Positions 6,490-54,923 of a stretch of 64,000 nucleotides of DNA are shown here, piece by piece. The notes beneath the pieces are model-generated. The model worked only from the letters and a program-made list of their open reading frames with translations, was not told the origin of the DNA and ran no database searches. Position 1 is the first letter of the stretch; each line of letters starts with the position of its first letter. The stretch is from NCBI GenBank assembly GCA_014584395.1, contig JACTMY010000010.1, positions 1-64,000 on the forward strand. Reading direction: 5' to 3'. This DNA is from Planctomycetota bacterium. GTDB taxonomy: Bacteria; Planctomycetota; Planctomycetia; Gemmatales; HRBIN36. The translations under genes were made by a program, and so were the position numbers.

Positions 6490-9456
6490 ATGTTGGCCCT
6501 GGTTCCCCAAGAAGAACCTATCTTGAGTGATTTTCTGACCCAACCGTCCACCGGCCAAGCAACTTCGACGGATTTGCCTTCGTCGATGATGTCGCTTGGA
6601 CATGCGCTGGGAGCTTCGTTGTTTTATGCGGCATCGAAAACAGAACGTGCGCAATGGCTGCAATGCCTGGAACGTGGTGAATGGGTTTCCACTTGCCAAT
6701 TGAAAGCAACCTCTTTCCCAGCATCCTACCTTCATTTTCCCAAGCATCTATTATCTGTGTTTGATGATGCCTGGAATCCATCTTCCTTGCCCCATGGAAT
6801 CAATCAAAAGAAGTCAACGACGACACTTACCTTTCACGACGCAGACCTGAGTGAAGTGCAGCGCTGCATGGTTCAAAATGCCGTCGACAATCAGGATGTG
6901 TTTTTAATTCAAGGCTTGCCAGCAACGGGGAAAAGAAGAATTGCTCTTGAGATCATCGCTCAATGCTTGAGGAGAGGCGAGCGAGTTTTACTCTTAACAT
7001 GGCATCAAGATATTCTAGAGTCGCTGGTGCAGCGCATCAGGGGAGCGATGGAAGTCGCCTGCATCGTCATGGGTCCAAACCCGTCAAACCCAGAGGCCAT
7101 GCCCTATTCCTTGGCCTCCATGACGGACGCCTTGCTCGACACAAGTCTGAAGTCGCATCCGCGTTTAACAGCCCTGTACGAGCGACTAGATCATTGCCAA
7201 CACTGTTTGCACGAATGGCCCCGATGGCAAGATCGATTGAGACGCAATGAACAAATGCAGATGGAGCTTGAATCACTGCAAAAGGAGAAACAGGAACTAT
7301 CCGGCGTTCATCGGCATGAATGGCAGATCGATTCAATCCAGCACTTGCTGCCTGAATCCACCAAACAAGTGGAAGCGGAAACCTCTCGACACGAAGCGAT
7401 CCTGGCCGAACTTCAACAAGCCGTGAATACCGCCAAAATGAACTTTTTGGATCAAGAAGCCGCCTGTGGCCGCTGGCGTCAACAAGTGTCGCAGCAAGAA
7501 AACGTGGTGGACCTCCGCAAACAGCCCCACTGGCTGAGTTGGCGATGGTGGCGCGTGGCCTGGCAAGGCCGAGCCGAGGAGCGGCTCGCCGAATTTCGAA
7601 CGCGCTGCGAGGAAGCAGCCCAAGAGTTAATCAAGAAACAACAAGCCATCGACGAAGCGGAACAACAAATCGCCATCGAACACCATCGCCATCAAGCTGC
7701 TAAGGTTCAAATCCTGCAAATGGATTTGAGCCTGCGCATCGAGGCGTTGGAAACGAAAATCTCGGCCCTGCGTGAAGCTAGGGAAGAAGATTTACGACAA
7801 TGGTCAGAGCTATGCGCCTCTTTATCCACCGAATGGCCATTGCTACCCTTCTCCGAGTTAGGTTTGCATCAACTCCGGGATTGGCTTTATCGTGCTCTTG
7901 AAGCGATTCAGATCGAAATCAAGCAAGTTAAGCAAGATGTTTTGCCAACCCAACAGTTTGCGCTCCAGGCGGAGTTATTGAGTGCTGCCCAGCTCATCGG
8001 CGCCGCGGGGTCCGCAGCCAATCAGTTGAATCGAGATGAATGGACCACGGCCATGCCACAGGGGGTAGACCGCTTGATTTTGTTAGAAGCAGAGCAATGG
8101 CCTCGCCAGGAATTGCTGGCCGCTTGCTCATGGGCAAACCAATGCGTGTTGATCGGGCAAGCGTCATGGTGGCCTGGCCATACAGTCTCTGCCTTTCATG
8201 GACTGATCAACGCTTGGTATCAACCTCCCGCCGCGGGGTCAGCCCGGTGGTATGAAACGAGCACGCAGCTCATATGTCAACTAATCGACCCCGCATCCTG
8301 CATAGACCAACCTGTGCATTGGGAAACCTTGGCTGATCAACCCGCCGTGGAACTAGGCATCATTCATGCCGACGGCGATGTGCCTCATTTGGCGTCCGTG
8401 GTCTTTCCGAAAGCGGATTTTGCTTTGGCCACAGCCAAGAAACTCTTAACCGAGCATTTGGAAGAGTCCACTTTGGACTGTCAATCAAGGTCATTGAATT
8501 GGCAATTTCATTCAGATGGCGTTGCTCTAACGTTTCCAGAGATGGTTGAACTATCTCCCGCGATCGATGTGGAACTTGAACCGGGATTGGTGGAGAATTT
8601 AGTCGCGGTTCCTGTCCCCGATCAACCTGACATTGTGGAATGGCGAACCCGCAAAATCGTATTCAACGACCCATGGAATCGCGAACGCATCTTGGATTGG
8701 GTTCAACATAAATTGTCATGGACAGAAGTCGGTCGAGTGGGAACTCTCGACCAACGATGGGGAATCAAGAGTGAATTGAATCACCTGGTCCAGTCAGCGA
8801 TTCTGCATAAGCCGTTGATAAGGGATTTAAAAGAGCGCGGCGTGCATGAGTGGCTGCGGATTTCTCCCACGCGCTTAAAAGCCTCACGCCAGGGAAATCC
8901 AAGTCGGCCTCATCAAATGCTCATAAAAGATGCACCGGTTCAAAGCCGGTTTGATCATCAAAAAGAAGAGGCCCAGTCCCTCGTGGCGGCCTTGGAACAA
9001 TGGCTGCAAAAAGCGGACAAACCTTGTGATCCTCCGCTTTCGGTGTTAGTAATCACCAGTGAGTCAACCCAACAACGGTTGCTTCAAGAATTGTGGCACC
9101 AGCAAACCTATCAAGCGGAAGAGTCCTTCTCCATTGAGTTCTTGTCGGCCCAACAAGCCCAAGGCCGGCATGCTGATGCGGTCTTCGTTAGCCTTTGGCC
9201 GTACACGCATCAAGACGGCATGAACGATGAAGTCCGTTATCGCACTTGCGTGACGGCCTTGCTGGCAGCGCGGAACTACCTTTTATGGGTGGGTGATCTC
9301 GCCGCGGCTTTAGCTTGCGCCAGCGGGCGCGGTCTCGCCAATGATCCGCAACCTGGCCATGCCATCAGCGAAGCCACCACGCATCTCCTCAAATTGATTC
9401 AATCCCAAGTCGGCGAACCTCATTGGATAGTCATGCCCGAGGGTGCATTGGCATGA
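6490..9456 (+). CDS. Degenerate SF1 (Upf1/DNA2-like) helicase with long coiled-coil insertion
   Basis: This encodes 988 residues. Residues 1-115 are unrecognised. LSEVQRCMVQNAV (about 120-132) looks like a Q-motif, and QGLPATGKRR (141-150) is a Walker A motif. About 235-470 is an Arg/Glu/Gln-rich coiled-coil insertion. The motif II region at about 527-535 reads LILLEAEQ, so the usual Asp of D-E-x-x is replaced while E-A-E is kept. CVLIGQ looks like motif III. Near the C-terminus, FLSAQQAQGRHADAVFVSLW and TALLAARNYLLWVGD align with motifs V and VI of Upf1-like helicases. An in-frame TGA immediately precedes the ATG, fixing the upstream limit. The stop overlaps the next gene's start (ATGA), so the two are probably translationally coupled. 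An AAA-type ATPase acting on nucleic acid is likely; true helicase activity is doubtful. Confidence 0.65.
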   Translation: MLALVPQEEPILSDFLTQPSTGQATSTDLPSSMMSLGHALGASLFYAASKTERAQWLQCLERGEWVSTCQLKATSFPASYLHFPKHLLSVFDDAWNPSSLPHGINQKKSTTTLTFHDADLSEVQRCMVQNAVDNQDVFLIQGLPATGKRRIALEIIAQCLRRGERVLLLTWHQDILESLVQRIRGAMEVACIVMGPNPSNPEAMPYSLASMTDALLDTSLKSHPRLTALYERLDHCQHCLHEWPRWQDRLRRNEQMQMELESLQKEKQELSGVHRHEWQIDSIQHLLPESTKQVEAETSRHEAILAELQQAVNTAKMNFLDQEAACGRWRQQVSQQENVVDLRKQPHWLSWRWWRVAWQGRAEERLAEFRTRCEEAAQELIKKQQAIDEAEQQIAIEHHRHQAAKVQILQMDLSLRIEALETKISALREAREEDLRQWSELCASLSTEWPLLPFSELGLHQLRDWLYRALEAIQIEIKQVKQDVLPTQQFALQAELLSAAQLIGAAGSAANQLNRDEWTTAMPQGVDRLILLEAEQWPRQELLAACSWANQCVLIGQASWWPGHTVSAFHGLINAWYQPPAAGSARWYETSTQLICQLIDPASCIDQPVHWETLADQPAVELGIIHADGDVPHLASVVFPKADFALATAKKLLTEHLEESTLDCQSRSLNWQFHSDGVALTFPEMVELSPAIDVELEPGLVENLVAVPVPDQPDIVEWRTRKIVFNDPWNRERILDWVQHKLSWTEVGRVGTLDQRWGIKSELNHLVQSAILHKPLIRDLKERGVHEWLRISPTRLKASRQGNPSRPHQMLIKDAPVQSRFDHQKEEAQSLVAALEQWLQKADKPCDPPLSVLVITSESTQQRLLQELWHQQTYQAEESFSIEFLSAQQAQGRHADAVFVSLWPYTHQDGMNDEVRYRTCVTALLAARNYLLWVGDLAAALACASGRGLANDPQPGHAISEATTHLLKLIQSQVGEPHWIVMPEGALA

Positions 9457-10454
9457 CTGATTCCGCACTAGGATTCCCTTCTCACCAAGATTTGGCGACG
9501 TTGTGGGAAGCCGTGCCAGGCAAACCCTACCTCAGTGTGGGCGTGGGCTGGATTCCCATTCATGTCGTGGAATTGAAGTGTCTTTGGGAAGCCCCCAACA
9601 TCACGGGACCGCTTAGCAATGCCGTGCTTCAATGTCTGAGCCGATCCGAATTAACTTTCAATGAACTCCAAAAGAGGATGAGCCTGCCCAAGCCTTGGCT
9701 GGAAGCTATTTTGTCCAGCTTGGCACGAACCGGTTTGATCACAGACCTAAACGCGGACCGCCGCTTTGCAGCGGAGCAAATCATTCGGGCAAATCCAGGA
9801 GTGAGCGCGAGCACATTTTACAAGCGGCACCTTTTTCATTTCTTTGAATGGAGTGGTGCCAATCATCCTCTGTACATCAACATTCCTCCCCAGGTAGGGG
9901 TGGCCATGCAGCAATGGACCCTCAGCAAGACCATCTCCATGGCTTACCTCGAAGAACTGATCCAACTCCCGTTAGAACAAAAAACGGCTCTGAAATTCCC
10001 ACCCCACATCAAGCAATTAGCTCTTCCCAATCTTCAGCAATTGGACTCCCTGGTGATTCATCAAATGCAATGGTTGGCGGTGCTTTGCTTGACCACGCCT
10101 GACCAATTTCAACTCTTTAGTCTCAATCCTCAGGATTGGACGCTCGGCGAGCAAAGCCCCTTCTTGCAGAAGCCATTGAGTGAGCCAGCGGCTGAAAAAA
10201 TAATCCAACTGATACCGCAACCTGACCGCAATGCCTGGGTAGGAGCATGGGAAAGCGTTCGCCGAGCGCTCACCTTGCCCCCCGCAGCCTTAGGCGACTA
10301 TCAAGAATTAGCGACCGGACCGCAAATCAATATTAAATTGCCAGCGAGCGTCGTGGATCGGCTTCATCAACAACACCAACCAACCACGCTTTGGTTAACG
10401 GCCGGGAGCGGACGTTTTCGTCGAGCCGCCCAGGCTAAACTGACAGGAAGTTGA
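9453..10454 (+). CDS. Unknown protein coupled to the helicase-like gene; possible winged-helix segment
   Basis: This encodes 333 residues from the ATG at 9453, which overlaps the upstream stop by ATGA. That overlap is why I prefer it over an earlier in-frame start at 9423. No family is recognised. Residues about 50-110 (LSNAVLQCLSRSELTFNELQKRMSL...) resemble a winged helix or DprA-like small-helix segment, with a short helix, turn and second helix ending in ARTGLI. The rest is mixed alpha/beta with Trp-rich patches. There is no signal peptide or membrane segment. Because of the overlap the protein is probably made in fixed ratio with the helicase-like ATPase and may be its partner. Function unknown. 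Confidence 0.6.
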   Translation: MTDSALGFPSHQDLATLWEAVPGKPYLSVGVGWIPIHVVELKCLWEAPNITGPLSNAVLQCLSRSELTFNELQKRMSLPKPWLEAILSSLARTGLITDLNADRRFAAEQIIRANPGVSASTFYKRHLFHFFEWSGANHPLYINIPPQVGVAMQQWTLSKTISMAYLEELIQLPLEQKTALKFPPHIKQLALPNLQQLDSLVIHQMQWLAVLCLTTPDQFQLFSLNPQDWTLGEQSPFLQKPLSEPAAEKIIQLIPQPDRNAWVGAWESVRRALTLPPAALGDYQELATGPQINIKLPASVVDRLHQQHQPTTLWLTAGSGRFRRAAQAKLTGS

Positions 10455-43036: not shown

Positions 43037-43525
43037 TTAGGTAGAATAGCGGCCAAACTGTTTTTGCAGATGCAGTGGAAAGCGGGCGAGGAAACGCGTC
43101 TTCAACCGAACCAGGATTTCACTGCCATGCCGGGTCCAATCCACAGTCCTGACGTTGGGGATAAGGAGGGTAACACACGCATGCAGCCAAATGGTCATTA
43201 AAACCATTGTGACCAAGTTCAGCCAATTGAGGAGCATGAAAATGCCCATCAGTCCAAGACTGAGCAACGCCCAGATCAGTCTGATCTCACGGCGCCAGAG
43301 GAGTAATGAGGGCACCGTCAGAGCGGTCAGCAAGAACACGACCCACTTCGTGATCCAAAGCCATTCCGCCTTGAACAAATAGGTCGATAACAACACGATC
43401 CATGCTTGCAGCCCTGCTATGACCAATACCACTGCCAGGGCCAATCCACCCATCAAGAAGAGGCGGCGTTTGACAATGCGTTTAATGAAGGTTCCTTGCG
43501 TGGTTGCCACGAACAGGACCAACAT
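43037..43525 (-). CDS. Small four-helix membrane protein in the TIR operon
   Basis: This encodes 162 residues with no recognised family. Four hydrophobic segments (about 23-48, 58-75, 83-100, 103-125) are separated by short basic loops. The C-terminal tail is Arg-rich (LVRLKTRFLARFPLHLQKQF). It starts 30 bases after the upstream zinc-ribbon gene on the same strand, which in turn follows the TIR gene by about 33 bases, so the three form a probable operon. Confidence 0.6.
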   Translation of the reverse strand: MLVLFVATTQGTFIKRIVKRRLFLMGGLALAVVLVIAGLQAWIVLLSTYLFKAEWLWITKWVVFLLTALTVPSLLLWRREIRLIWALLSLGLMGIFMLLNWLNLVTMVLMTIWLHACVTLLIPNVRTVDWTRHGSEILVRLKTRFLARFPLHLQKQFGRYST

Positions 43526-43555
43526 ACCCCATAGGAGACAAGAGTGGAAGACGCT

Positions 43556-45403
43556 TCAAAACGTATCGACCATGTTAAAACTAAGATTCACGTCCAGAGC
43601 CATGATGTGATCGTTCAAGTATTCAAGCCAAAAATAAAAGAGTACGGTACTTGCAAATCCAGGAAGTAAACCGACCAGACCACGCCAAATCGGCAGCTTG
43701 AACAGGGCGGCCGAGAAAGTTCCAGTAGCGACATAAAACCAACCATATGAAAGCCAAGCCCATTTAGGCTCTTTGACATCATCGAAGTCGATACCCGTGC
43801 AAAGAACCGCCAAACCCGAAAGAATCATTGGCAGCCAATACGCATGAATCCGTTCCTTGCCGCCGACCATGAGAGCCGCAGCCAATAAACCAAGGGGCAT
43901 CAAAATCGTTAAAAGCGTCCGACTATGGTTTTCCGATTGAATGGCCGTTCCCAACCAAGGGTAAAGGGTTCCTTGGAGCAGGACGATGACGACGATGAAC
44001 AACTGCCATTCGATCGCCATGGCGGTGTTTTCAACGCGCTGCTGATGCGCCATGGGGTTCGTGGAAAACAAGTCGTCGATTCGACTCGCCTCCGAGTTGG
44101 TTAGTTCTTGCAAAATCACAGGAGAGAGGTCGTCATCTTTTGAATCGACTTTAGCGTGGACCGCTTCTCTCGACGCGCCGCCTGATGCATCATCTAGTTC
44201 TTCCAACTTGATGATGTCCAACTGCTGCGCTTTCGTCAGTTCTGGCAAAGGCACGATGCGCACGGACGAGACGTCGATCACGGCAGCCTGACCTGCGGCA
44301 CTTCCCCCAACGCCAATTTCATCGGGTAAAAGTTGTACTAATTCATCCTTGCGACGCCGCCCCAGTTTCACAGAGTGGACATGACACCTTAAGACTTGCC
44401 CTTTATTGGACATCGACAGCAACACGATGCCGAGCAAAATGATCGAGCCACATCCCCAAATAATGATCGGTACACCAATAAACTGCAGCAACCCTTGACG
44501 CGACCGCGCTTCGGCGAATGGTGGGTAATACAGCGCAACGATCAGTCCTGACAAGATTACGATCAGGATGATGATGCGCAAGATCCATACAAAGGAGTAA
44601 ATTTTACCGATTTCCTCCTGAACACGAGCGCGGATTTTGGCCATCCGCGGATCGGCCAAGAAGGATTCATCGATGTCCTTCAAGACATGATCGGCTTTCA
44701 CCCAATTCCGCCGCCGAACGATTTCTTCTAATTGAGCGACCCGTTCCGTCACATCGCCCGTCGAGCGAACCAGCTCCAAGGCGCCTTCGTGATCGGCCAC
44801 GGCCACCAGCACGCTGCGGGCAAAGCGGTTCGCATTCTTCAAATGGCCGGCTGAAAACTCGGCTTTGGCCCGGGCATACAACGCATTGGCGGCGGCAATT
44901 TTCTGCCGCACGGCCTTGCTGATCGGCATTAGCTTGGCCACTTGTATCCGCTGGGCTTCGAGCCATGCGATCTCGCGCTCCAAGGAGATCAGTTTTCTTT
45001 GCGCCAGCAATTCACGCACGTCGTCGCCCAGGAGGAGATTCGCGCGCTCCATGACGACTTTGCATTTTTGCTCTAATTCCGCAATCTGCGCATCCGCAGG
45101 AAACGCATGGCGCAGCGATTCAAGCAATAGTGCCGCTTGCTTGTAGGCACCTTGAGCCATCAATGCGACAACGGCTTTCAGCTTCTTTTCGTGGTAATGG
45201 TGGATCGACTTAACGCGCGCTTTGGGAATGTCCGTTCCGCACTTGGAACAAAAGCGCACTCCCGCCGCGATGAGGAAGGAACATTGCGGGCAGTTCTGCC
45301 ACAAGGCCGCGCCGCAGGAGTCGCAGAATTGAGCATCTCGCGGATTGAACCGCTTGCACCCTGGGCAAACCACAGAACTGCTTGCGTCGCCTTGAACAGG
45401 CAT
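43556..45403 (-). CDS. Double zinc-ribbon, multi-pass membrane protein in the TIR operon
   Basis: This encodes about 615 residues from the ATG at 45403; a TTG at 45418 is an alternative. The N-terminus has tandem zinc ribbons, CPGC...CDSC and CPQC...CSKC (about 12-55). A helical/TPR-like region follows (about 65-260: QGAYKQAALLLESLRHAFP, ELLAQRKLISLEREIAWLEAQ). Then come two membrane helices (about 275-330), a cytoplasmic segment rich in Asp/Ser, and about six more hydrophobic helices to the C-terminus. No known family is recognised beyond the zinc ribbons. Position between a TIR protein and a small membrane protein suggests a membrane component of one system. Confidence 0.6.
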   Translation of the reverse strand: MPVQGDASSSVVCPGCKRFNPRDAQFCDSCGAALWQNCPQCSFLIAAGVRFCSKCGTDIPKARVKSIHHYHEKKLKAVVALMAQGAYKQAALLLESLRHAFPADAQIAELEQKCKVVMERANLLLGDDVRELLAQRKLISLEREIAWLEAQRIQVAKLMPISKAVRQKIAAANALYARAKAEFSAGHLKNANRFARSVLVAVADHEGALELVRSTGDVTERVAQLEEIVRRRNWVKADHVLKDIDESFLADPRMAKIRARVQEEIGKIYSFVWILRIIILIVILSGLIVALYYPPFAEARSRQGLLQFIGVPIIIWGCGSIILLGIVLLSMSNKGQVLRCHVHSVKLGRRRKDELVQLLPDEIGVGGSAAGQAAVIDVSSVRIVPLPELTKAQQLDIIKLEELDDASGGASREAVHAKVDSKDDDLSPVILQELTNSEASRIDDLFSTNPMAHQQRVENTAMAIEWQLFIVVIVLLQGTLYPWLGTAIQSENHSRTLLTILMPLGLLAAALMVGGKERIHAYWLPMILSGLAVLCTGIDFDDVKEPKWAWLSYGWFYVATGTFSAALFKLPIWRGLVGLLPGFASTVLFYFWLEYLNDHIMALDVNLSFNMVDTF

Positions 45404-45436
45404 GCCAGGATGAGCCAAACGGGCTAACTCATCTTG

Positions 45437-45955
45437 TCAGACTTTTTCTTCCTGTCGGGCCTTTTCCTCCAAGCGCAGCCGTTCTTCGAGTCGATCCCGT
45501 ATTCTTTTGATTTCTAGGATCAACCGATTGACGTCTTCCTTGAAATAGGGGTCTCCTCTGACTTCGGTGACATGGATGTCCAATAGCCAATGCAATGACG
45601 CTGGGATTTGATCGAGGCGAGGAAAAGGCGCGTTTTTCACGATGATGGACATCACCAAGCGTTTGTTGCGATTGGCTGCTTCCAACTCGTAGCGCACCCA
45701 ATCATCGTCATTCATGATGCGCGGCTGACCCGACTTCTGATCGACGCAACTCGTCCACTGTTTGCCGATCAGCGCTAATACAATGTCACTCTTCGATACG
45801 GACTGCTCAAGGACCCGTTTCCATTTTTGGCCTGGTCGAATGGAATCCAAGTCTTTGAACAGATTCTCACTGCCGAATTCCACGACTAACCGATCATAGA
45901 GACGACCCGCCAGATCGTCGGTATCTTTTCGTCGATAATTGATGAACAGCTTCAT
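45437..45955 (-). CDS. TIR-domain protein
   Basis: This encodes 172 residues. MKLFINYRRKDTDDLAGRLYDRL and NLFKDLDSIRPGQKW are the box 1 and box 2 motifs of bacterial TIR domains of the 'FISYRR' type. DDWVRYELEAA carries Glu90 at the position of the catalytic glutamate of NAD-cleaving TIRs. The C-terminal 40 residues form a charged coiled coil (IKRIRDRLEERLRLEEKARQEE). TIR proteins act as NADases in antiphage defence or as signalling adaptors. Here it heads an operon with a zinc-ribbon membrane protein and a small membrane protein. NADase activity is inferred, not shown. The 256-base spacer upstream (45956-46211) holds no gene that I can support. Confidence 0.85.
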   Translation of the reverse strand: MKLFINYRRKDTDDLAGRLYDRLVVEFGSENLFKDLDSIRPGQKWKRVLEQSVSKSDIVLALIGKQWTSCVDQKSGQPRIMNDDDWVRYELEAANRNKRLVMSIIVKNAPFPRLDQIPASLHWLLDIHVTEVRGDPYFKEDVNRLILEIKRIRDRLEERLRLEEKARQEEKV

Positions 45956-46211: not shown

Positions 46212-46538
46212 TTATTTGGTTTGAAGGAGTCCGTGGTCGCGCATCCAAGAAAAGATGGCCACAGCCGAGGGCAAGCCGATCGTGCTGGCTGAGAGGGCCA
46301 CCAGTTGCTCGATGGCGGCAGGAGGCACGCCCGCCGCCAAGGCTTTGCGAATGCCGGCATGCACGGCCCCCTCCTTCATGGAACCGATGGCGATGGCGAG
46401 TTTAACCAGGCGAATCGCATGCTCGTCCAGCGGGCCTTGCCGTTCGGCCTCGTGAATTTTGTCCCATGCCTCGCCCAATTGCGGATAACGCTCGATAAAG
46501 GCGAAATACGTGGGAGGAGGGCCAGCGGGTTCGGACAT
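46212..46538 (-). CDS. Carboxymuconolactone decarboxylase-family protein, last gene of the NXR-like operon
   Basis: This encodes 108 all-helical residues: LVKLAIAIGSMKEGAVHAGIRKALAAGVPPAAIEQLVALSASTIG. This is the CMD/AhpD fold core, but the redox C-x-x-C of AhpD is absent, so peroxidase function is unlikely. AAGGAG lies 8 bases before the ATG. It follows the hemerythrin gene by 40 bases on the same strand and ends at a 6-bp hairpin (46195-46211) that may be a weak terminator. Role in the operon unknown. Confidence 0.8.
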   Translation of the reverse strand: MSEPAGPPPTYFAFIERYPQLGEAWDKIHEAERQGPLDEHAIRLVKLAIAIGSMKEGAVHAGIRKALAAGVPPAAIEQLVALSASTIGLPSAVAIFSWMRDHGLLQTK

Positions 46539-46578
46539 GATGGGACTCCTTGCGATCGTGGACGATCCGTGTTGGTCC

Positions 46579-47205
46579 CTAGCTTACAACCCCTCCATGG
46601 GAATGTCCACACCCGCATGCCCCGGTCTTGGCGATTTCGCTCACCCGATCCCGCACTTGGAAATGCTGGGCCAACTCCTCGGCCAAGGCCAGGTATTTTT
46701 CATGCACGCCGGTCCCAATGTCGTCTGCCTCCACGCGCGCATAGGCCTCGAGCAATTGCTGATCATCCTCCGCCGTGGCCACCTGATCCGCCATGGCGAA
46801 CAGGCAATGATCTTCCTTGTGGATATGTTCGCGCAGCAGTTGGACATAGGCTTTGGCATGATGGCAAAAGGATTGAACGTCGCTGTCGATGCCCTGCCCC
46901 GCTCCGGGAATGGCCCCGCTCATTTGTTGGATATAGTGACGACCCAGCGTGTGTTCGCGGAGCATCACACCCGTCGGCCCCATTTGGCGGGAGAAGCCGC
47001 GCTGCTCCAGCCAAGGGAAGAGATGATCCTCCTCCTTGCCATGGTGGCATCGGTCCGCGAAGGCTTTCAGAAAATCCACGATTTGGTCGGCGCGATCCGC
47101 TTCCAGCCGGCCGGCGGTTTGCGTCCTGTGCACCAAGGCTTCCAGGCAATCCAGGACCTGCTCAATGACGCGGTGTTCCTGCATCAGAATCTGAGTCGCT
47201 TGCAT
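46579..47205 (-). CDS. Hemerythrin-like (HHE) domain protein
   Basis: This encodes 208 residues of an alpha-helical di-iron binding domain. Ligands are visible in order: LMQEHRVIEQVL, CHHGKEEDHLFPWLE, LREHTLGRHY and LLREHIHKEDHCLFAMA. The tail CGCGHSHGG is Cys/His-rich and may bind another metal. HHE proteins bind O2 or NO. Within an operon for an oxygen-sensitive molybdo/Fe-S enzyme a scavenging or sensing role is plausible. AAGGAG lies before the ATG; the upstream chaperone gene ends 59 bases away. Confidence 0.88.
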   Translation of the reverse strand: MQATQILMQEHRVIEQVLDCLEALVHRTQTAGRLEADRADQIVDFLKAFADRCHHGKEEDHLFPWLEQRGFSRQMGPTGVMLREHTLGRHYIQQMSGAIPGAGQGIDSDVQSFCHHAKAYVQLLREHIHKEDHCLFAMADQVATAEDDQQLLEAYARVEADDIGTGVHEKYLALAEELAQHFQVRDRVSEIAKTGACGCGHSHGGVVS

Positions 47206-47264
47206 GTCTCTTCTCCTTCATGGCCGGGGCATCGCCAAGATGCCTTGAGGGTTGCCGTTCGCAA

Positions 47265-48047
47265 TCACGCACGACGCTGCTCCGCGCACCCTGCGCAGTC
47301 CAAGCCCGCGTCGGCTTCCAAATCGGGCGTGGGCTGCATGGGAGCTTGGGGTGCTTCCAAGCCGAACCATCTGCGTTCGAAGGTGACGAACGAGGCCAAG
47401 ACTTGGGCCAATTCGGCATAATACCCTTCTCCCGCTTTAAATCGCAAACCTTTGGCGAAAGAGGGCACCCACCATGCCAGATGGGCTTCAAAAAAGGACT
47501 TGGCCGCTTCCGCGCACAGCCAACCCCGCGACCGCCCCAGATCATCTGCGCTGGCCAAACGCTCTTTCATAAGCAGCAAGGCCATGAATTCCAGTTCGAG
47601 AGTCAAATGGTCCGGCCGTTCCGAGGCGTTCGCGGGAGCCTGCACGCCAAAGGCATGGTAAAACCCCGCGATGTCGGCTAACTGCTGCGTCCGAAAGAAC
47701 GGTTCGTTATTCGGCTGAAACTCGGTCTCAAAAGGCGGACATTCCCGGCAACTCATCAACCCAAAGACGCGTTCGTATTCGGTCCGCCATTCTTCGAAGG
47801 AAAGATCGTGAAACAACGTCCATAGCGTGCGGAAGTTGAGCCGTTCGGGGCCGATTTCACCGAACCCCAATTGATCGGTGAACGCCGCCGATTCCAAGCG
47901 GAGCAGTTCCGCGGCGGCTTGAAGGTAATACAGCGATTCGGGGTTGAAGAAATCGATGCGCGAGGGATGACGCGGATCCGTCAAGGCCGATGCCAGGAAT
48001 CGGTAGATGCCCTCGCGAGCCAATGGCAGAGAGATGTTCGCAACCAT
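47265..48047 (-). CDS. TorD/NarJ-type molybdoenzyme chaperone
   Basis: This encodes 260 residues from the ATG at 48047, which has a perfect AGGAGG 6 bases upstream; this start decides against the longer frame to 48107. The fold is all-helical: REGIYRFLASALTDP at the start, then EEWRTEYERVFGLMSCRECPPFETEF, which matches the TorD-family E-Y-x-x-x-F...PPYE region, and LELEFMALLLMKER. The C-terminus has a CAGC. Such chaperones bind the catalytic subunit during molybdopterin insertion and hold it back from Tat export. It lies directly after the Fe-S subunit gene (10-base gap), the normal order in Nar/Nxr/Pcr/Ebd operons. Confidence 0.86.
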   Translation of the reverse strand: MVANISLPLAREGIYRFLASALTDPRHPSRIDFFNPESLYYLQAAAELLRLESAAFTDQLGFGEIGPERLNFRTLWTLFHDLSFEEWRTEYERVFGLMSCRECPPFETEFQPNNEPFFRTQQLADIAGFYHAFGVQAPANASERPDHLTLELEFMALLLMKERLASADDLGRSRGWLCAEAAKSFFEAHLAWWVPSFAKGLRFKAGEGYYAELAQVLASFVTFERRWFGLEAPQAPMQPTPDLEADAGLDCAGCAEQRRA

Positions 48048-48057
48048 GATCCGCCTC

Positions 48058-49350
48058 CTAGATCGAGTTCGCATGCTTGGCGAACGGGCGTTTGTGGATG
48101 GGTTCATCGATCGTCACGCGCACGACTTCCTTGCCGAATTTGTTGAAGCCCATGACGGTGTCGTTATAAAGATGCTGCACCTTGATTTGCCCATTCGGCA
48201 TCTTGATCGGTACTTCCGCCACCTTGGGGCCCTTTTCGATCTTGAATTTGAACAGAATTTGCCGCTGTGCTCGGAAGAGCTGCAAGACCGCCAGCAGTTC
48301 CCGGTCCGGGCAGCAATACTGTTCGATCGCCCGGTCGACGCCGGGACCGAACATTTGCTGCAGATATCCCCGCGGGACCCAACGGGGCGGGATGTAGAAG
48401 CCGTTGGGCTCCGTGCCGAATTGCGGATAGAGCGGCAACGCCACCTGCCGTTCGCGGATGAGATAGCAGAGCGGGTTTTCGGGATCATTGGCCCATTTCC
48501 CATCGTCGCCGATCTTGACCAGTCCCTGCATGCGAATCTTGCCGACGCACACGGACATGCAGCGGGTTTCGACCGGTTCGCCATTGGGACTGAGTTCGGG
48601 ATCCTTGCCTTCGATGCGGGGATAGCAACCGACGCACTTTTCACTGGTGCGGGTGTTCGGCCGGAACATCACCTTTTTGTAGGGACAGCCCTCGACGCAT
48701 TTGCGGTAACCGCGGCACCGCTCCTGGTCGATGAGAACGATGCCGTCCTCGGGCCGCTTGTAGATGGCTTGGCGGGGGCAGGCTCCCAAACAGCCGGGAT
48801 AGGTGCAATGATTACAAATGCGAGCCAAGTAAAAGAACCAGACTCGGTGTTCGGGCAATTGCGACGTTTGATCGAAGGCGCCGGGCTGATACTTCATTCC
48901 CTGAGCGGCATCCTCATGCAAATTGGGCGTCCGCCATTCCGCTTCCGTGGGCTGATAACCCAGAACCGCCTGCGGACCTTCCGGTCCGACGTATTTTTTA
49001 GCCGCGTCGAAGATGGTCATGCCGGTGAATTCCCCATAGGGTTTTTCCCGGCCGTTCTTGGCGGCGGCATCCCACGATTGCTGGCCCGGATTAACCCCTT
49101 CCAGCATCGACAACAGCTTGGCGTCCCAGTTTCTCGGGTAGCCGCCGAAGGGCTTCGTTTCGACGTTGTTCCACCACATCGATTCTTGCCCTTTGGCAAA
49201 CGTCCACGTGCTTTTGCACGCCATCGTGCACGTCTGACAGGCAATACAACGATTGATGTTGAACACAAAGGCGAATTGCCATTGCGGATGCTTCTCCTCG
49301 TAGGGGTAGCTCATCGGCCGGCCAAGTTGCCAGTTATAGACCATTGCCAT
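48058..49350 (-). CDS. nxrB: NXR/NarH-type Fe-S electron transfer subunit
   Basis: This encodes 430 residues, the size of NxrB. Four Fe-S cluster motifs are visible: CIACQTCTMACKSTW, CNHCTYPGCLGACP, CRGYRKCVEGCPYKK and EKCVGCYPRIE followed by CMSVCVGKI. In the third motif Tyr sits where NarH has Trp, the [3Fe-4S] position. GQESMWWNNVETKPFGGYP and YKRPEDGIVLIDQERCRGY are close to nitrite-oxidoreductase beta subunits of Nitrospira and anammox bacteria as I remember them. There is no signal peptide, so export would be by hitch-hiking with the Tat-tagged catalytic subunit. It carries electrons from the Mo subunit to the cytochrome/haem gamma subunit. Confidence 0.88.
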   Translation of the reverse strand: MAMVYNWQLGRPMSYPYEEKHPQWQFAFVFNINRCIACQTCTMACKSTWTFAKGQESMWWNNVETKPFGGYPRNWDAKLLSMLEGVNPGQQSWDAAAKNGREKPYGEFTGMTIFDAAKKYVGPEGPQAVLGYQPTEAEWRTPNLHEDAAQGMKYQPGAFDQTSQLPEHRVWFFYLARICNHCTYPGCLGACPRQAIYKRPEDGIVLIDQERCRGYRKCVEGCPYKKVMFRPNTRTSEKCVGCYPRIEGKDPELSPNGEPVETRCMSVCVGKIRMQGLVKIGDDGKWANDPENPLCYLIRERQVALPLYPQFGTEPNGFYIPPRWVPRGYLQQMFGPGVDRAIEQYCCPDRELLAVLQLFRAQRQILFKFKIEKGPKVAEVPIKMPNGQIKVQHLYNDTVMGFNKFGKEVVRVTIDEPIHKRPFAKHANSI

Positions 49351-49362
49351 GGCAAGTTCCTT

Positions 49363-49767
49363 TCACGAGAGAGGTTCACCCAAGATTTCCCGCCGCCGCA
49401 GCGAAAGTTGTATCAAACCCATGTCGTCGTCTTCCTCGATCAGGTCCGGGTCGGGCGTTTCATCCACGATCGCCGTGACGCGGATGCCCCCCATCTGGCG
49501 ATCCAATTCGTCTATGGCCCGACGGACTTGTTCGGAACCGAAACGCTGCAGCAAATCCTGAAGCATCGGATATTGAGGGTCCTCGAACAGTCCAAAAAGC
49601 TGCTCGGGGGGCCAGCCCATCCAAAGGTACTCTTCGACCATGCATTGCAGCATGTACCCCGGATCGCCCATGGCCGCGTTGGCCATCAATTCCATGGGGT
49701 CCTCGGGGAACATTTCACGCTCGAGGGGATGCACCTTGGGGACCCATGATTCAGAGGAAGCTTGCAT
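49363..49767 (-). CDS. Unknown acidic protein encoded between the NXR-like alpha and beta subunits
   Basis: This encodes 134 residues of no recognised family. It is helical and Met/Asp/Glu-rich, with HPLEREMFPEDPMELMANAA and a motif VEEYLWMGWPPEQLFGLFEDPQY, then a variable acidic tail (DETPDPDLIEEDDD). There are no cysteines in cluster motifs, no signal peptide and no membrane segment. Gaps are 18 bases from the alpha gene and 12 bases to the beta gene, so it is made together with the two structural subunits. A dedicated assembly factor or small subunit is the natural inference from position. Confidence 0.65.
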   Translation of the reverse strand: MQASSESWVPKVHPLEREMFPEDPMELMANAAMGDPGYMLQCMVEEYLWMGWPPEQLFGLFEDPQYPMLQDLLQRFGSEQVRRAIDELDRQMGGIRVTAIVDETPDPDLIEEDDDMGLIQLSLRRREILGEPLS

Positions 49768-49785
49768 GGCCTGCCGCCTTAAAGA

Positions 49786-52700
49786 TTAACCACGGATTTT
49801 GATGAAGCCGCCGCTGAGATACTGCAGATTCAAGGGAGCGTCATTGCCCGGCGTGAAGGGCGTTTCCGCGACTTCCCACGAACCTTTGCCGCCCAAGCCG
49901 CCATCCTCGGCCTTGACGATGCGAACCAGCGTTTCCTTGGGGACGGTGTTGATGGCGTGATTGTCGGCCTCGCCGCCGAACATAAAGGCCATTTTCACCT
50001 TGGCCTTGTGAAACAACGTGTCGGTCTGGTGCATAGGCATGAGCCAATTGCGGGTGCACGATTGCTGGGCGCCGTAGCGCAAGTTGGCCTGGTAGCCCGT
50101 GTCCGCCGACCGCGCTCGACCGTCGGGGCTGTTTTCATGGGCATGCACCGTTTTTTCCGTGGCGATGAAGGGGGCATGCTTGATCATCACGACGCCGCGC
50201 GGATAACTCGGATTATAAATCACCCGCAGCATCAACCGGGCCACCTTGGCCCGCGCCGGATCCTGCTGCCAACCCCGGAAGGGCCGGTCCGCGGGATTGG
50301 AGTCCACATAGGCATAATCCCCGTTCTTCAACCCCAAGTCCTTGGCGTCATCCGGATTCACGTGCATCTGGTGATCGCCATAACCGGGCAGACGCTTGTC
50401 GGTCCGGAAGGGATCGCCATGGTTCGAATCCCAGATGATGTGCCAATCGACCGTCGACCACGAAGAGTGAACGCGGTGCCGGCTCTTCGGCGTCAACAGG
50501 AAATAGCGATATCCCGCTTCCCACAAGGGATTCTTGGTCTGCTTCACTTCCTGCCAGGGCAGTTTGACGTTGCGAATGGTCCTCTCGTCCCAATGCATCG
50601 CGTCGCGGGGGATGCCGAAGTCATCGGGGCGGATCAGCGGGTTCGTGCTCACGATAACGTTAGGCAAATAAGGCGTTGCTTCCGGCCCCTCGCGATGGAC
50701 GATGAAGTTTTCGCCATGCAGGATCGCTTCGGGAATATCACAATAACTGTTCAGCCGCCCCGTATCGGTCCAGAACGGCACCCCGTCGTGCAAGTTCTCA
50801 TAGAACGGAATGCGCGGATAGGTGCGGAAGAGCATAAGGGCCACGCCAGATTCGCCGTACTTGCCGGCCATGATATCGTCCACGGTATAGCCGCGCGTCG
50901 TCGTCGAGGCATCGAGCAACCGCTGGATATAGACTTTCGCTCCATCCTGGCGGTCTTTCACCAGGAAATGCCAGTAGTCCGCAAAGCGCCGGTCGCCCGT
51001 TTCCTTGGTCAGCGCCTCGGCGGCCTCGGCCAAGATCAAGGAATCATCCCGCGTATCATGGACGGGAGGAATTCCCCCTTTCCATATGTTCAGGAAGGGA
51101 TTGGAACAGGAGGCGGTGATCTCCAGGTTCTGAAACTCCATCCAAGTATTGACGGGGTAGACCAGATCGGCGTACTCGCAGGAACTGGTCATCTCGCAAT
51201 CCTGCGCGATGATGCAATCGATCTTCGGATTGACCACGAAGAACATGTCATAGGCATGCTTGGCGTTGTTGAACAGATTGACGTTGGTGAACCACAGGAA
51301 CTTCGTCGGCGTGGGCATGTGGGTCTGGCCGGTGAAGCACTTGCGGCCATACTTCGGCGTGTTCACGACCAGGGGCCGCTCGCCATGATTCCAATAGGCT
51401 GGCTCCTCGTCCTTGGAATATTTCTTGACCTTGACTGCCTTGCCATCGGCCTTCGGATCGAGATTGGGATGGAAGGGGTCTTCCGCGATCCAGCCCAGAA
51501 AGCCCGGCAAGTCGCCCGAACCTTGGAACAGGGCTGCTTTGTAATTCCCCGCCCAGGTGAAACAGCCCGCGCCCGGCCGGCCCAACTGACCGGTCAGCAT
51601 GAGGGGAAGGTACTGAGCGCGATTGGCCAGCGTGGCGTGGAACCAATGGTTGATCCCCTCGCCCACGTGGATGGCCACGGCGTGCCCCCGCTCAGTGGTC
51701 TCCCAAATATCGCGCGCCAGTTGCGCGATCAAGTCTTGCCGAGAGCCGGTGATCTGCGAAACCGTCTCGAGATCGTAGTCCTTCAGATTGATCTGATAGG
51801 CGTCCCACAAGGTCATGACTTCAACTTCACTGCCATCCACCAATTTGATCTTGCCCCGATAGGACAAAGCCGGATCAATGCCAGCCTGCGCCAAACGTTC
51901 ACCCATCTGATCCCGAGTCAAGGGGCGCAAAGCCTTTTGCTTCTCGTCATAGATCATGAAATCGCCGATCTTGGCGTATTGCTCGTCGGTGAGATGTTGG
52001 TAGGCGTAAGAGGGTCCGGTTTTCTCCAGGCCGGGTTGGTAACCTTGAATCACGTCGCTAGCGCGCAGCCGCTTGAGGGTGTCGGTGCGGATGAGCAGCG
52101 GGAAATCGGTATAGGCTTTGACGAAGTCGGCCTTGTACCAACCCTGGTCGATCATGTGTTTGGTAACGCCCAAGAACAAAGCCGTGTCCGTGCAACCGGG
52201 ACGCACCTGAATCCAATAGTTGGCCTTGGTGGCGGGAGGTCCGTATTCAGGCGTGATGACCACGATCTTGCCGCCGCGCTCCATCAGTTCGTTGAACCAA
52301 TGGTTGTCGGGCATCTTGTTCTCGACCAGGTTCTTGCCGCATTGAATATGCAGCTTGGCATGGCGCATGTCGTTGAAATCGCAATCGGACGTTTGCAGGC
52401 CATGGACAAAGGGATGGCCCGGGGCCTGATCGCCATGCCAGGTGTAATTTGACCAAAGCCGCCCGCCTTGAGCGTCCTTGGGATCGACCTTGCGCACGTT
52501 TTGATCAAGCAGGGCGAGCATGTTGGCCCAACGATACATGCCATACTTGCCAATGACGCCCAGCAGTCCCATGCCGCCGCGCAGCTTGAACGTCCTGGTG
52601 CCCGCGCCATGGCACTCGTCGATCATCTCCGGTTCATAACCATCCGCCTTGAAGCGGCGCACACCCTCCGGGCCGCTATACGTCTTGGCGATGGCCACGG

Positions 52701-53241
52701 CCGCTTTCGCATGATACCGATACATGTCCTCCCAGGAGACGCGAACAAACGTGTCCGTGCCCCGGCTGTTGAAGCGGTACTTGTCGCGCAACGATGGATC
52801 ATCGGAAAGCGAAGGGAAACCGGCGTCCGCCCATTCCTTCCATCCCTTGCGGATCAGGGGCCATCGCAAGCGGTACGGCCCATACAACCGCCGCTGCTGC
52901 GAGAAACCCTTCGCACAGCCGCGCGGATTCCAATGTTCCGTGTCGCAGTGGCCGTAAAGATCCTTGATCTTCCCGCTTTCATATTGCTGCTCGGAACGGA
53001 GCACGATGCCATTGCGAACGTAGGCGATCATGCGGCAATTGTGCGTGTCGTTCGGCGCGCAGACCCATGAGAAGGAACGATCATAACGGTATTGATCGCG
53101 GTAGGTTTCCTCCCAGCCCCGATTCGGATAGACTCCGAGCGGATTGGCCACGTTCACTGGCTGCAAGCCATACAACTTAGGCAGCATCAACGATTGCGAG
53201 GTCAAGGTCAAACTGGCCGTTAGGAAGTCGCGGCGATTCAT
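49786..53241 (-). CDS. nxrA: NXR-type molybdopterin oxidoreductase catalytic subunit (nitrite oxidoreductase / Nar family)
   Basis: This encodes 1151 residues, the size of NxrA. The N-terminus MNRRDFLTASLTLTSQS is a Tat signal (RRDFL), so the active site should face the periplasm. The proximal cluster region is C61-x3-D65-x3-C69...C109 (WVCAPNDTHNCR ... WNPRGC), as in periplasmic NXR-type enzymes, where NarG has His-x3-Cys-x3-Cys. GLQTSDCDFNDMRHAKL aligns with the NarG segment carrying the Mo-ligand Asp; here Asp291. YGPYRLRWPLIRKGWKEWADAGFP, NHGERPLVVN and later blocks follow NXR enzymes more closely than E. coli NarG. GGAGGAG precedes the ATG. Reaction direction (nitrite to nitrate, or reverse, or another oxyanion) cannot be settled from sequence. 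Confidence 0.88.
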   Translation of the reverse strand: MNRRDFLTASLTLTSQSLMLPKLYGLQPVNVANPLGVYPNRGWEETYRDQYRYDRSFSWVCAPNDTHNCRMIAYVRNGIVLRSEQQYESGKIKDLYGHCDTEHWNPRGCAKGFSQQRRLYGPYRLRWPLIRKGWKEWADAGFPSLSDDPSLRDKYRFNSRGTDTFVRVSWEDMYRYHAKAAVAIAKTYSGPEGVRRFKADGYEPEMIDECHGAGTRTFKLRGGMGLLGVIGKYGMYRWANMLALLDQNVRKVDPKDAQGGRLWSNYTWHGDQAPGHPFVHGLQTSDCDFNDMRHAKLHIQCGKNLVENKMPDNHWFNELMERGGKIVVITPEYGPPATKANYWIQVRPGCTDTALFLGVTKHMIDQGWYKADFVKAYTDFPLLIRTDTLKRLRASDVIQGYQPGLEKTGPSYAYQHLTDEQYAKIGDFMIYDEKQKALRPLTRDQMGERLAQAGIDPALSYRGKIKLVDGSEVEVMTLWDAYQINLKDYDLETVSQITGSRQDLIAQLARDIWETTERGHAVAIHVGEGINHWFHATLANRAQYLPLMLTGQLGRPGAGCFTWAGNYKAALFQGSGDLPGFLGWIAEDPFHPNLDPKADGKAVKVKKYSKDEEPAYWNHGERPLVVNTPKYGRKCFTGQTHMPTPTKFLWFTNVNLFNNAKHAYDMFFVVNPKIDCIIAQDCEMTSSCEYADLVYPVNTWMEFQNLEITASCSNPFLNIWKGGIPPVHDTRDDSLILAEAAEALTKETGDRRFADYWHFLVKDRQDGAKVYIQRLLDASTTTRGYTVDDIMAGKYGESGVALMLFRTYPRIPFYENLHDGVPFWTDTGRLNSYCDIPEAILHGENFIVHREGPEATPYLPNVIVSTNPLIRPDDFGIPRDAMHWDERTIRNVKLPWQEVKQTKNPLWEAGYRYFLLTPKSRHRVHSSWSTVDWHIIWDSNHGDPFRTDKRLPGYGDHQMHVNPDDAKDLGLKNGDYAYVDSNPADRPFRGWQQDPARAKVARLMLRVIYNPSYPRGVVMIKHAPFIATEKTVHAHENSPDGRARSADTGYQANLRYGAQQSCTRNWLMPMHQTDTLFHKAKVKMAFMFGGEADNHAINTVPKETLVRIVKAEDGGLGGKGSWEVAETPFTPGNDAPLNLQYLSGGFIKIRG

Positions 53242-53279
53242 AACGTGCTCCTCCCGGAGAGTAACATCGAGGCGTCCGA

Positions 53280-54923
53280 CTACTCCACCGTCAATTCATG
53301 CCAAATGGAGATTTGCTTTTGACCATTGCGATCCCGGGCCGCTCCATCCCAGATCGAGAAGGCAATGAAGCACTTCTTACCCGAGTTTAAGCTCACGCCT
53401 TCATTTGGTTTCAGGGCCAAGGGACGCACAAACGTGACCGACCATTGCCCCGTCTGATATTGAGCTTCAGCCTTGACCCACTGAGAACCTCGGGGGCGGA
53501 ACGTGGTGCTGCCCAGACCCGACGCCATCAGATGGCTCGCGCTTTGTCCAGCCTCGGAGGCGCTGTTTTGGTTGTTCGCAGCCCTGGCTGTATAAAAATT
53601 AGGCGGCGGACGATCCGACTTGGGCAAGCGCTTCAACAACTCGAAATAAAGCGGCAGGTCAAATGGATAATCATCGAGGATGTGCTTCGCCTTGGTTTGA
53701 TCCACGGCCTGGCTGGCTTTCCACAGCCAGATGTCGACCACGCCAAAACCGTGTGCCCCCATGCCAATGAACGGTTCTTGCTTGCCATCGAAGATTTGAA
53801 CGGAAGCCTGGTCCTCATAGTCCTCGGGCCGCAGAATCACGTCGTTTTTCGAATCATCCTTCCACGTCAAGCGGATGGCCAACTGCTGGCCGTCATGCAG
53901 CGCTTGCACCTGAAGTTCGGGGTTTTTCCATTCCCGCCACCAGAGGGGAGCCGTGACAATGAAAGTCGACCCAACGCTATTCCAATCGGCACCTTCCAAG
54001 CGGTCCACGCGGCGGGCCGCCAATTGCTGCCGCTTGAATTCGACCTTGGCTTGGGTCTCTTCCGGCGCCAGGGAGCGGATGAAATGCACCATGTCGGCGA
54101 TTTCCGCCGGCTTCATATGCGGGCTGCCGGGCATGGGCGTGCCGGGCATGCCGATGTAAGTGCGACGAAACAGGGAGGCCACGTCCCGCCCGCCTTTAAA
54201 GATGCCCTGTGTAAAATCGCGGGGACGGGTGGGCGTGCCATCGTCATCCCTCTGATCTTTGCCGCCTTCGCCCCGCCCTGTTTCTCCATGACAAGTCGCA
54301 CAATGGGTCATGTACAGATCCCTGCCCCTCATCACGCTCGCCTGATCCTCCGAGGGCAATTGGCCAGGAAGCGTCAAGAGGTCCCCCGGCGTCGTTTGCC
54401 GCAGGGCTTCCTTTTTGATATGTTCCTCATCCACATCATCGCCAGAGTCCTCATACGCTTTCCTCAACCGTTTTTCGATGCCTGCTCGAGAAAGCCAGCG
54501 CACATACTGCACTAGCGAGTTCAGCTCCGGTTCTGACAAGTGGCCAAACGCCGTCATCGCCGAGCCGGGCATGCCGCGCCGGATCACCTGCATCAAGTCG
54601 TCATCGGTTGGGATGCGATTGACCGTGGAGATGACGCGGTATTTGCCTTCCTGGAAGTTGCGCGGCTTGGGGTAAAGAAACTGCGCCGCAATTCCCAATC
54701 CATCTCCAGCATCTCCGTGACACGCCGCACAATGGCGAGTGAAAAGGGCTTTCCCCATTTCCAACAGGGGAGAAGGAGTGTCTGGTTGCGTGGCCGAGGC
54801 CGCCGACGATGGATGAACGATCACTTCCACGGACGCACCGGCCTTCGTCCAGGCCATCATGCCACAGGCGCATCCAATCCCGATCCCCAGGATGACTAGT
54901 CCAGTCTTGATGGGTTGTGTCAT
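53280..54923 (-). CDS. nxrC: NXR gamma-like subunit: two cytochrome c domains fused to an ethylbenzene-dehydrogenase-type haem domain
   Basis: This encodes 547 residues. The N-terminal hydrophobic segment (about 7-27) is a signal/anchor. Cytochrome c domain 1 has C65-x2-C68-H69 (HCAACHG) and a Met-rich MPGSAMTAFGHL. Domain 2 has C208-x2-C211-H212 (HCATCHG) and MPGTPMPGSPHM. From about residue 320 (WWREWKNPELQVQALHDGQQLAIRLTWKD) to the end is an EB_dh/DMSO-reductase gamma-like beta-sandwich that binds a b-type haem. It would take electrons from the Fe-S subunit and pass them through c haems to soluble carriers or an oxidase. First gene of the operon; the alpha gene follows after 38 bases. A sigma-54 promoter lies about 50 bases upstream. 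Confidence 0.85.
   Translation of the reverse strand: MTQPIKTGLVILGIGIGCACGMMAWTKAGASVEVIVHPSSAASATQPDTPSPLLEMGKALFTRHCAACHGDAGDGLGIAAQFLYPKPRNFQEGKYRVISTVNRIPTDDDLMQVIRRGMPGSAMTAFGHLSEPELNSLVQYVRWLSRAGIEKRLRKAYEDSGDDVDEEHIKKEALRQTTPGDLLTLPGQLPSEDQASVMRGRDLYMTHCATCHGETGRGEGGKDQRDDDGTPTRPRDFTQGIFKGGRDVASLFRRTYIGMPGTPMPGSPHMKPAEIADMVHFIRSLAPEETQAKVEFKRQQLAARRVDRLEGADWNSVGSTFIVTAPLWWREWKNPELQVQALHDGQQLAIRLTWKDDSKNDVILRPEDYEDQASVQIFDGKQEPFIGMGAHGFGVVDIWLWKASQAVDQTKAKHILDDYPFDLPLYFELLKRLPKSDRPPPNFYTARAANNQNSASEAGQSASHLMASGLGSTTFRPRGSQWVKAEAQYQTGQWSVTFVRPLALKPNEGVSLNSGKKCFIAFSIWDGAARDRNGQKQISIWHELTVE

Follow-up and report, generated by a model that had tools for sequence, protein, structure and literature searches.

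A divergent TIR protein with a SARM1-like predicted fold encoded beside a zinc-ribbon membrane protein in a planctomycete genome

Analysis of the window (the whole stretch of 64,000 nucleotides studied here) revealed a small protein with a genuine TIR_2-type TIR domain, in which the conserved glutamate is present and for which the predicted fold resembles that of SARM1; its gene is followed by those of a zinc-ribbon membrane protein (P2) and a small membrane protein (P3). The most likely account of this arrangement, put forward tentatively, is a divergent TIR module, specific to this lineage, that has a membrane partner, and the TIR protein is predicted from its residues to be probably NAD-cleaving.

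The three genes and the membrane proteins P2 and P3

The three open reading frames (ORFs) are consecutive on the minus strand between 45955 and 43037, separated by 18 and 30 bp, and their coordinates were as originally given. The features of the locus are as follows:

45437..45955, minus strand: TIR_2 domain protein, 172 aa, ATG start, standalone; PF13676 E 5.1e-11, model pLDDT 93.5, SARM1 TIR Z 17.5
45686..45688, minus strand: codon of Glu90, the putative catalytic glutamate, in the stretch D85-W86-V-R-Y-E90
43556..45418, minus strand: P2, double zinc ribbon, TPR-like helical region and multiple transmembrane (TM) segments, 620 aa from the TTG at 45418
45239..45367, minus strand: P2 double zinc ribbon, residues 18-60; PF12773, four CxxC knuckles
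44654..45223, minus strand: P2 TPR-like helical region, residues ~66-255; TPR_14 below cut-off, helical hairpins in the single-sequence model
44405..44593, minus strand: P2 first TM pair, residues 276-338; hydropathy 2.92 and 2.56
43625..44035, minus strand: P2 C-terminal TM block, residues 462-598, from hydropathy; search for relatives without result
43037..43525, minus strand: P3, small protein with about four TM helices from hydropathy, 162 aa, ATG start, without a family

The start of P2 is ambiguous, as the TTG at 45418 (620 aa) and an in-frame ATG at 45403 are equally possible. The trio had been described as an operon, a term for which the shared strand and tight spacing are the sole basis; the scan of the locus gave nothing above shuffled sequences, with 2 promoter-like sites against 2.8 expected from shuffles and 4 terminator-like sites against 5.2 expected.

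P2 matched the Pfam family DZR (PF12773) with 37.5 bits against a cut-off of 27.3 (E 2.7e-9), and its four CxxC knuckles start at residues 18, 32, 43, and 57. The ~190 residues after the ribbon were TPR-like (TPR_14, E 6.7e-4, below cut-off), and a single-sequence model of P2 alone showed helical hairpins in this region, with pLDDT of ~46-88 by block and 51.8 overall. Hydrophobic segments were found by hydropathy near residues 276-294, 316-334, 462-491, 502-520, and 580-598, and the charges flanking the first TM pair were compatible with a cytoplasmic N-terminus, without being proof of it. The ribbon, the knuckles, and the hydrophobic segments bear out the description of P2 as a double zinc-ribbon multi-pass protein.

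The first ~280 residues of P2 matched a planctomycete protein of 1017 aa (locus L073, genome G011) with 23% identity over 273 residues. This protein consists of a Ser/Thr kinase, a DZR, TPR-like helices, and ~ten TM segments by hydropathy; its gene adjoins the gene for a protein with FHA, ABC-ATPase, and ABC2-membrane parts (L073, 3732-9333). When the G011 part was used as the query, DZR-bearing matches appeared in 53 of the 294 phylum genomes, its own genome counted, which makes proteins of the DZR-helical type common across the phylum. P2 itself had matches in 16/148 other relatives, most of them spanning the ribbon or the ribbon and the first helices, and one (L008/L073) reaching into the helical region. 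The ribbon also resembled ~870-aa proteins in other families of the class (L071 and L072). Both of these ORFs carry a double zinc ribbon, and L071, when scanned, also showed a PilM-like domain. Among plasmids, P2 was matched in 8 records, at the ribbon end, with no match covering more than 15% of its length.

A search of 392 phylum genomes with P2 lacking its ribbon returned its own gene and one weak match, with no credible relative of the TM part, and single-sequence scans for P2 in genome and viral contig collections gave no confirmed relative. The match of ribbonless P2 in genome G356 (E 3.9e-5) was by eye an unrelated permease and was taken as chance. P2 had been said to have no recognised family, which is right for its TM parts only, because the N-terminal half has kin (DZR in the first ~60 residues and TPR-like helices in the next ~190) and the 392 phylum genomes held no credible kin of the TM parts.

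The 162 residues of P3 contain ~four hydrophobic segments, and hydropathy thus fits the four-helix membrane protein that had been proposed. Searches of P3 against Pfam, PADLOC, and PHROGs gave no match, and NCBIfam gave one sub-threshold match. The phylum search with P3 returned a single marginal match (E 8.9e-4), taken as chance. The membrane segments appear to be orphans.

The TIR domain and its active-site-type residues

The TIR protein matched Pfam TIR_2 (PF13676) with 43.6 bits against a cut-off of 28, and its gene was the only one in the genome (3.7 Mb, 20 contigs, 87% complete) to match this family; a search of the same genome with PF01582 gave no match. The AlphaFold model had a mean pLDDT of 93.5 and included a charged C-terminal helix (residues 138-171). 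Its best match among solved structures was the SARM1 TIR (Z 17.5, rmsd 1.9, 135 residues, 22% identity). The first 20 rows of the VIA fold list were all SARM1 or TIR-1, with Z from 17.5 to 15.3, followed by plant TIRs at 14.6 and below, and Foldseek agreed; families missing from this list, such as ThsB, are not excluded by their absence there. The SARM1 TIR is placed inside a bacterial lineage in a 2026 preprint (PMC13142454), so a SARM1-like bacterial TIR is no surprise in itself.

The catalytic-type glutamate between strand C and strand D was present as E90. It was identical in 76/76 rows of alignment A5, built from the best 80 of 233 relatives, and in 17/17 rows of alignment A2. The rows of A5 comprised the query TIR (P0001) and 75 of the 80 loci, as L100, L116, L119, L124, and L150 gave no TIR ORF with the crude ORF caller used. 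Motifs within the first 35 TIR residues served to find the 80 loci, so conservation at those motif positions is a selection effect; E90 lies outside them. Glu90 also aligned with the glutamate of DWVxxEL (DWVHKE) in C. elegans tir-1, in a weak alignment (E 0.11). Trp86 stands four residues ahead of Glu90, and tryptophan occupies that column in only 12 of the 76 A5 rows; in SARM1, W71 and E75 (survey numbering) bind the ligand, according to a survey (PMC7075850). The original prediction of a TIR protein with a putative catalytic Glu90 is upheld by the family match above cut-off and by the presence and alignment of this residue, which was not missing in any row of A5.

The TIR is divergent but, on its sequence, retains active-site-type residues. 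Its branch length in the tree was 2.23 against a median of 0.41, and it departed from near-invariant columns at W45, N95, and S103, being the sole row of the 76 with N95 or S103. With this long branch and these odd residues, the protein could be altered in function or decaying. Its position in the tree was loose, with weak or open forks and the long branch, and for this reason no origin was inferred. An enzymatically inactive TIR scaffold for protein-protein signalling with P2 would agree with the divergence and the unusual N95 and S103, and, according to the survey (PMC7075850), this glutamate is critical for TIR NADase activity, yet how often it occurs is not always a guide to activity. However, Glu90, Trp86, and most near-invariant positions are retained, and we regard such a scaffold as very improbable.

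Conservation of the trio and its genomic setting

Conserved order of the TIR gene and the membrane genes, as originally supposed, did not emerge from the comparison. No relatives of P2 or P3 were found at E up to 1 in any of 85 TIR loci, a set made up of 80 genome loci (the best 80 of 233 relatives), chiefly from Anaerolineae and other Chloroflexi, together with five viral-collection loci; the best-80 set may omit the window's own genome. Another 15 TIR loci from relatives (L054-L068) likewise yielded no P2-like ORF. In counts that relied on a crude ORF caller and on hydropathy to score TM segments, a gene with at least three TM segments lay directly downstream within 100 bp in 1/72 cases for TIR against 53/598 for controls (best 80 of 233), so the TIR gene of relatives is not tied to multi-TM neighbours.

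Instead of a separate membrane gene, 41 of the 78 TIR ORFs of relatives (best 80 of 233) had a TM segment after the TIR within the same ORF, so that attachment to the membrane is a common trait of such TIRs. The Pfam scan and alignment A6 covered 61 of these 78 ORFs and the query, 62 proteins together. The relatives were mostly fusions, with FGE-sulfatase in 19/62, UDG in 6/62, and TPR in a few (best 80 of 233). The six proteins with TIR and Pfam UDG (uracil DNA glycosylase superfamily; L079-L158) are TIR-glycosylase fusions. FGE/C-type-lectin and TIR domains occur in predicted conflict systems, as described in two papers (PMC10907252, PMC7159879).

TIR matches were scattered, appearing in 11/148 other relatives and as one weak match among the 6 same-family genomes. 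Genome G078 (11.6 Mb, 520 contigs) held 21 TIR matches, several near-identical, and most relatives held none. Phages gave no TIR match, and plasmids gave four distant ones. A search of the open-access literature found no paper on a trio of TIR, zinc-ribbon, and membrane genes, in a title listing that cannot exclude a mention. This scatter, the order that is not conserved, and the kinase-type kin of P2 that lack TIR would all suit a TIR gene that lies by chance, perhaps after horizontal acquisition, beside an unrelated P2-P3 pair with no joint function. The single strand, the 18 and 30 bp gaps, and the low GC3 common to TIR and P2 argue against chance neighbours, which we consider a plausible though rather unlikely explanation.

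Base composition hints at acquisition of the trio without establishing it. GC content was 0.49-0.53 in the trio against 0.52-0.61 in the other 17 genes measured, and the GC3 values of TIR and P2 (0.584 and 0.607) were the two lowest of 20 window genes, with P3 ordinary at 0.675. The redoxin gene downstream of the trio had matches in all 6 same-family genomes; in the five same-family regions it was not beside the DPP-like peptidase gene or a TIR trio, and it was unlisted by the ORF caller in L185 and L188. The hemerythrin gene had no match in the 6 same-family genomes. Acquisition is thus not established, because these genomes offer no clean empty site.

The genes from the nar-type gene (53241) to the DPP-like peptidase gene (39726) are mainly on the minus strand. 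The stretch directly upstream of TIR (46212-54923, minus strand) contains, by eye, a nar-type nitrate/nitrite oxidoreductase cluster (large subunit, beta subunit, and chaperone) together with hemerythrin-like and carboxymuconolactone-decarboxylase-like genes. PADLOC was run on nine window genes; the five nearest (33544, 37982, 42326, 46212, and 46579) were without a match, and elsewhere there were kinase matches at 22256 and a histidine-kinase-type match at 57701. At 6490-10454 on the plus strand, two adjacent overlapping ORFs of 988 aa (helicase-like by eye) and 343 aa gave weak partial PADLOC matches of the Mokosh type (MkoA, E 8.4e-8; MkoB, E 5.2e-4).

The TIR and membrane genes had been likened to an abortive-infection unit. 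The features are real, but the trio was absent from the TIR loci examined and the system is not established; as the three genes were not found together elsewhere among those loci, an anti-virus label is a guess. A rare genuine anti-phage abortive-infection system, with TIR sensing or signalling and P2 and P3 as the membrane effector, would be consistent with a catalytic-type Glu TIR adjoining membrane genes, with the weak similarity of TIR to ThsB (PADLOC) and ThcB4 (NCBIfam), and with the lowest GC3 of 20 window genes in TIR and P2, as acquired genes may have. On the other hand, none of the TIR loci examined held the trio, P2 and P3 are without a defence family, the surroundings look metabolic by eye (nar-type genes, hemerythrin, redoxin, and DPP), and the GC3 of P3 is ordinary. 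Such a system is unlikely; a role in immunity is conceivable but unsupported.

Proposed module and comparison with known systems

The divergent TIR module with a membrane partner is favored by the TIR_2 match above cut-off, Glu90 in 76/76 rows, Trp86, the SARM1-type fold, and the likeness of P2 to a kinase-DZR-TPR-TM signalling protein. Against it stand the unconserved gene order, the long branch and odd residues of TIR, and a glutamate that does not always mean activity. In this module, TIR would cleave NAD+ or produce a signal derived from NAD. P2 would expose its zinc-ribbon and TPR-like part to the cytoplasm and use it to bind TIR, perhaps through the charged C-terminal helix of TIR, a predicted contact that is pure conjecture. 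P2 would keep TIR inactive or cluster it at the membrane, and P3 may stabilise or extend the membrane part. Under stress, possibly phage, TIR would oligomerise and NAD+ would fall. A separate partner protein may thereby do here what a TIR-fused TM segment does elsewhere. Should TIR prove active and under the control of P2, the locus would represent a two-protein way of keeping a TIR NADase at the membrane, a task handled in relatives by a single fused chain, and it would connect planctomycete zinc-ribbon/TPR membrane signalling proteins with NAD-based signalling. Otherwise, this is just another scattered TIR gene.

The planctomycete kinase-DZR-TPR-TM protein of G011 shares with P2 the order of DZR, TPR-like helices, and TM segments, but differs in its N-terminal Ser/Thr kinase, in a genome without a TIR match, and in TM parts that cannot be confidently aligned. 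That a SARM1-like bacterial TIR stands under a separate zinc-ribbon/TPR membrane receptor, derived from such a protein by kinase loss with the kinase output swapped for a TIR output, is a speculative idea to which we give little weight.

Among defence systems, PADLOC gave no defence family in P2 or P3. Thoeris ThsB resembles the window TIR in being a TIR as the first component and in a weak HMM match (PADLOC ThsB, E 1.2e-6, partial, residues 2-63); the NCBIfam ThcB4 match of 32 bits was far below the cut-off of 220. The ThsA-type effector of Thoeris is a SIR2-SLOG or TM-macro protein (in part after PMC11204291). No ThsA-like SIR2 or macro effector domain was found in P2 or P3. In the TIR-STING and TIR-SAVED proteins of CBASS, TIR is fused to a cyclic-nucleotide sensor, and the 172-aa protein holds TIR alone. 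SPARTA short Argonaute systems pair TIR-APAZ with Ago; the same protein is TIR only, and P2 and P3 contain no Ago.

The closest sequence relatives of the TIR are the TIR-TM-FGE and TIR-TPR fusions of Anaerolineae and other bacteria (31-46% identity, best 80 of 233), whose domain sets are similar to those of the conflict-system effectors described in PMC10907252 and PMC7159879. They differ in having TIR joined to other domains in one chain, other neighbours, and no DZR-TPR-TM partner. SARM1 and C. elegans TIR-1 are alike to the window TIR in the closest solved fold and the W-x-x-x-E spacing, whereas the latter is bacterial and standalone, with neighbouring genes in place of ARM or SAM domains.
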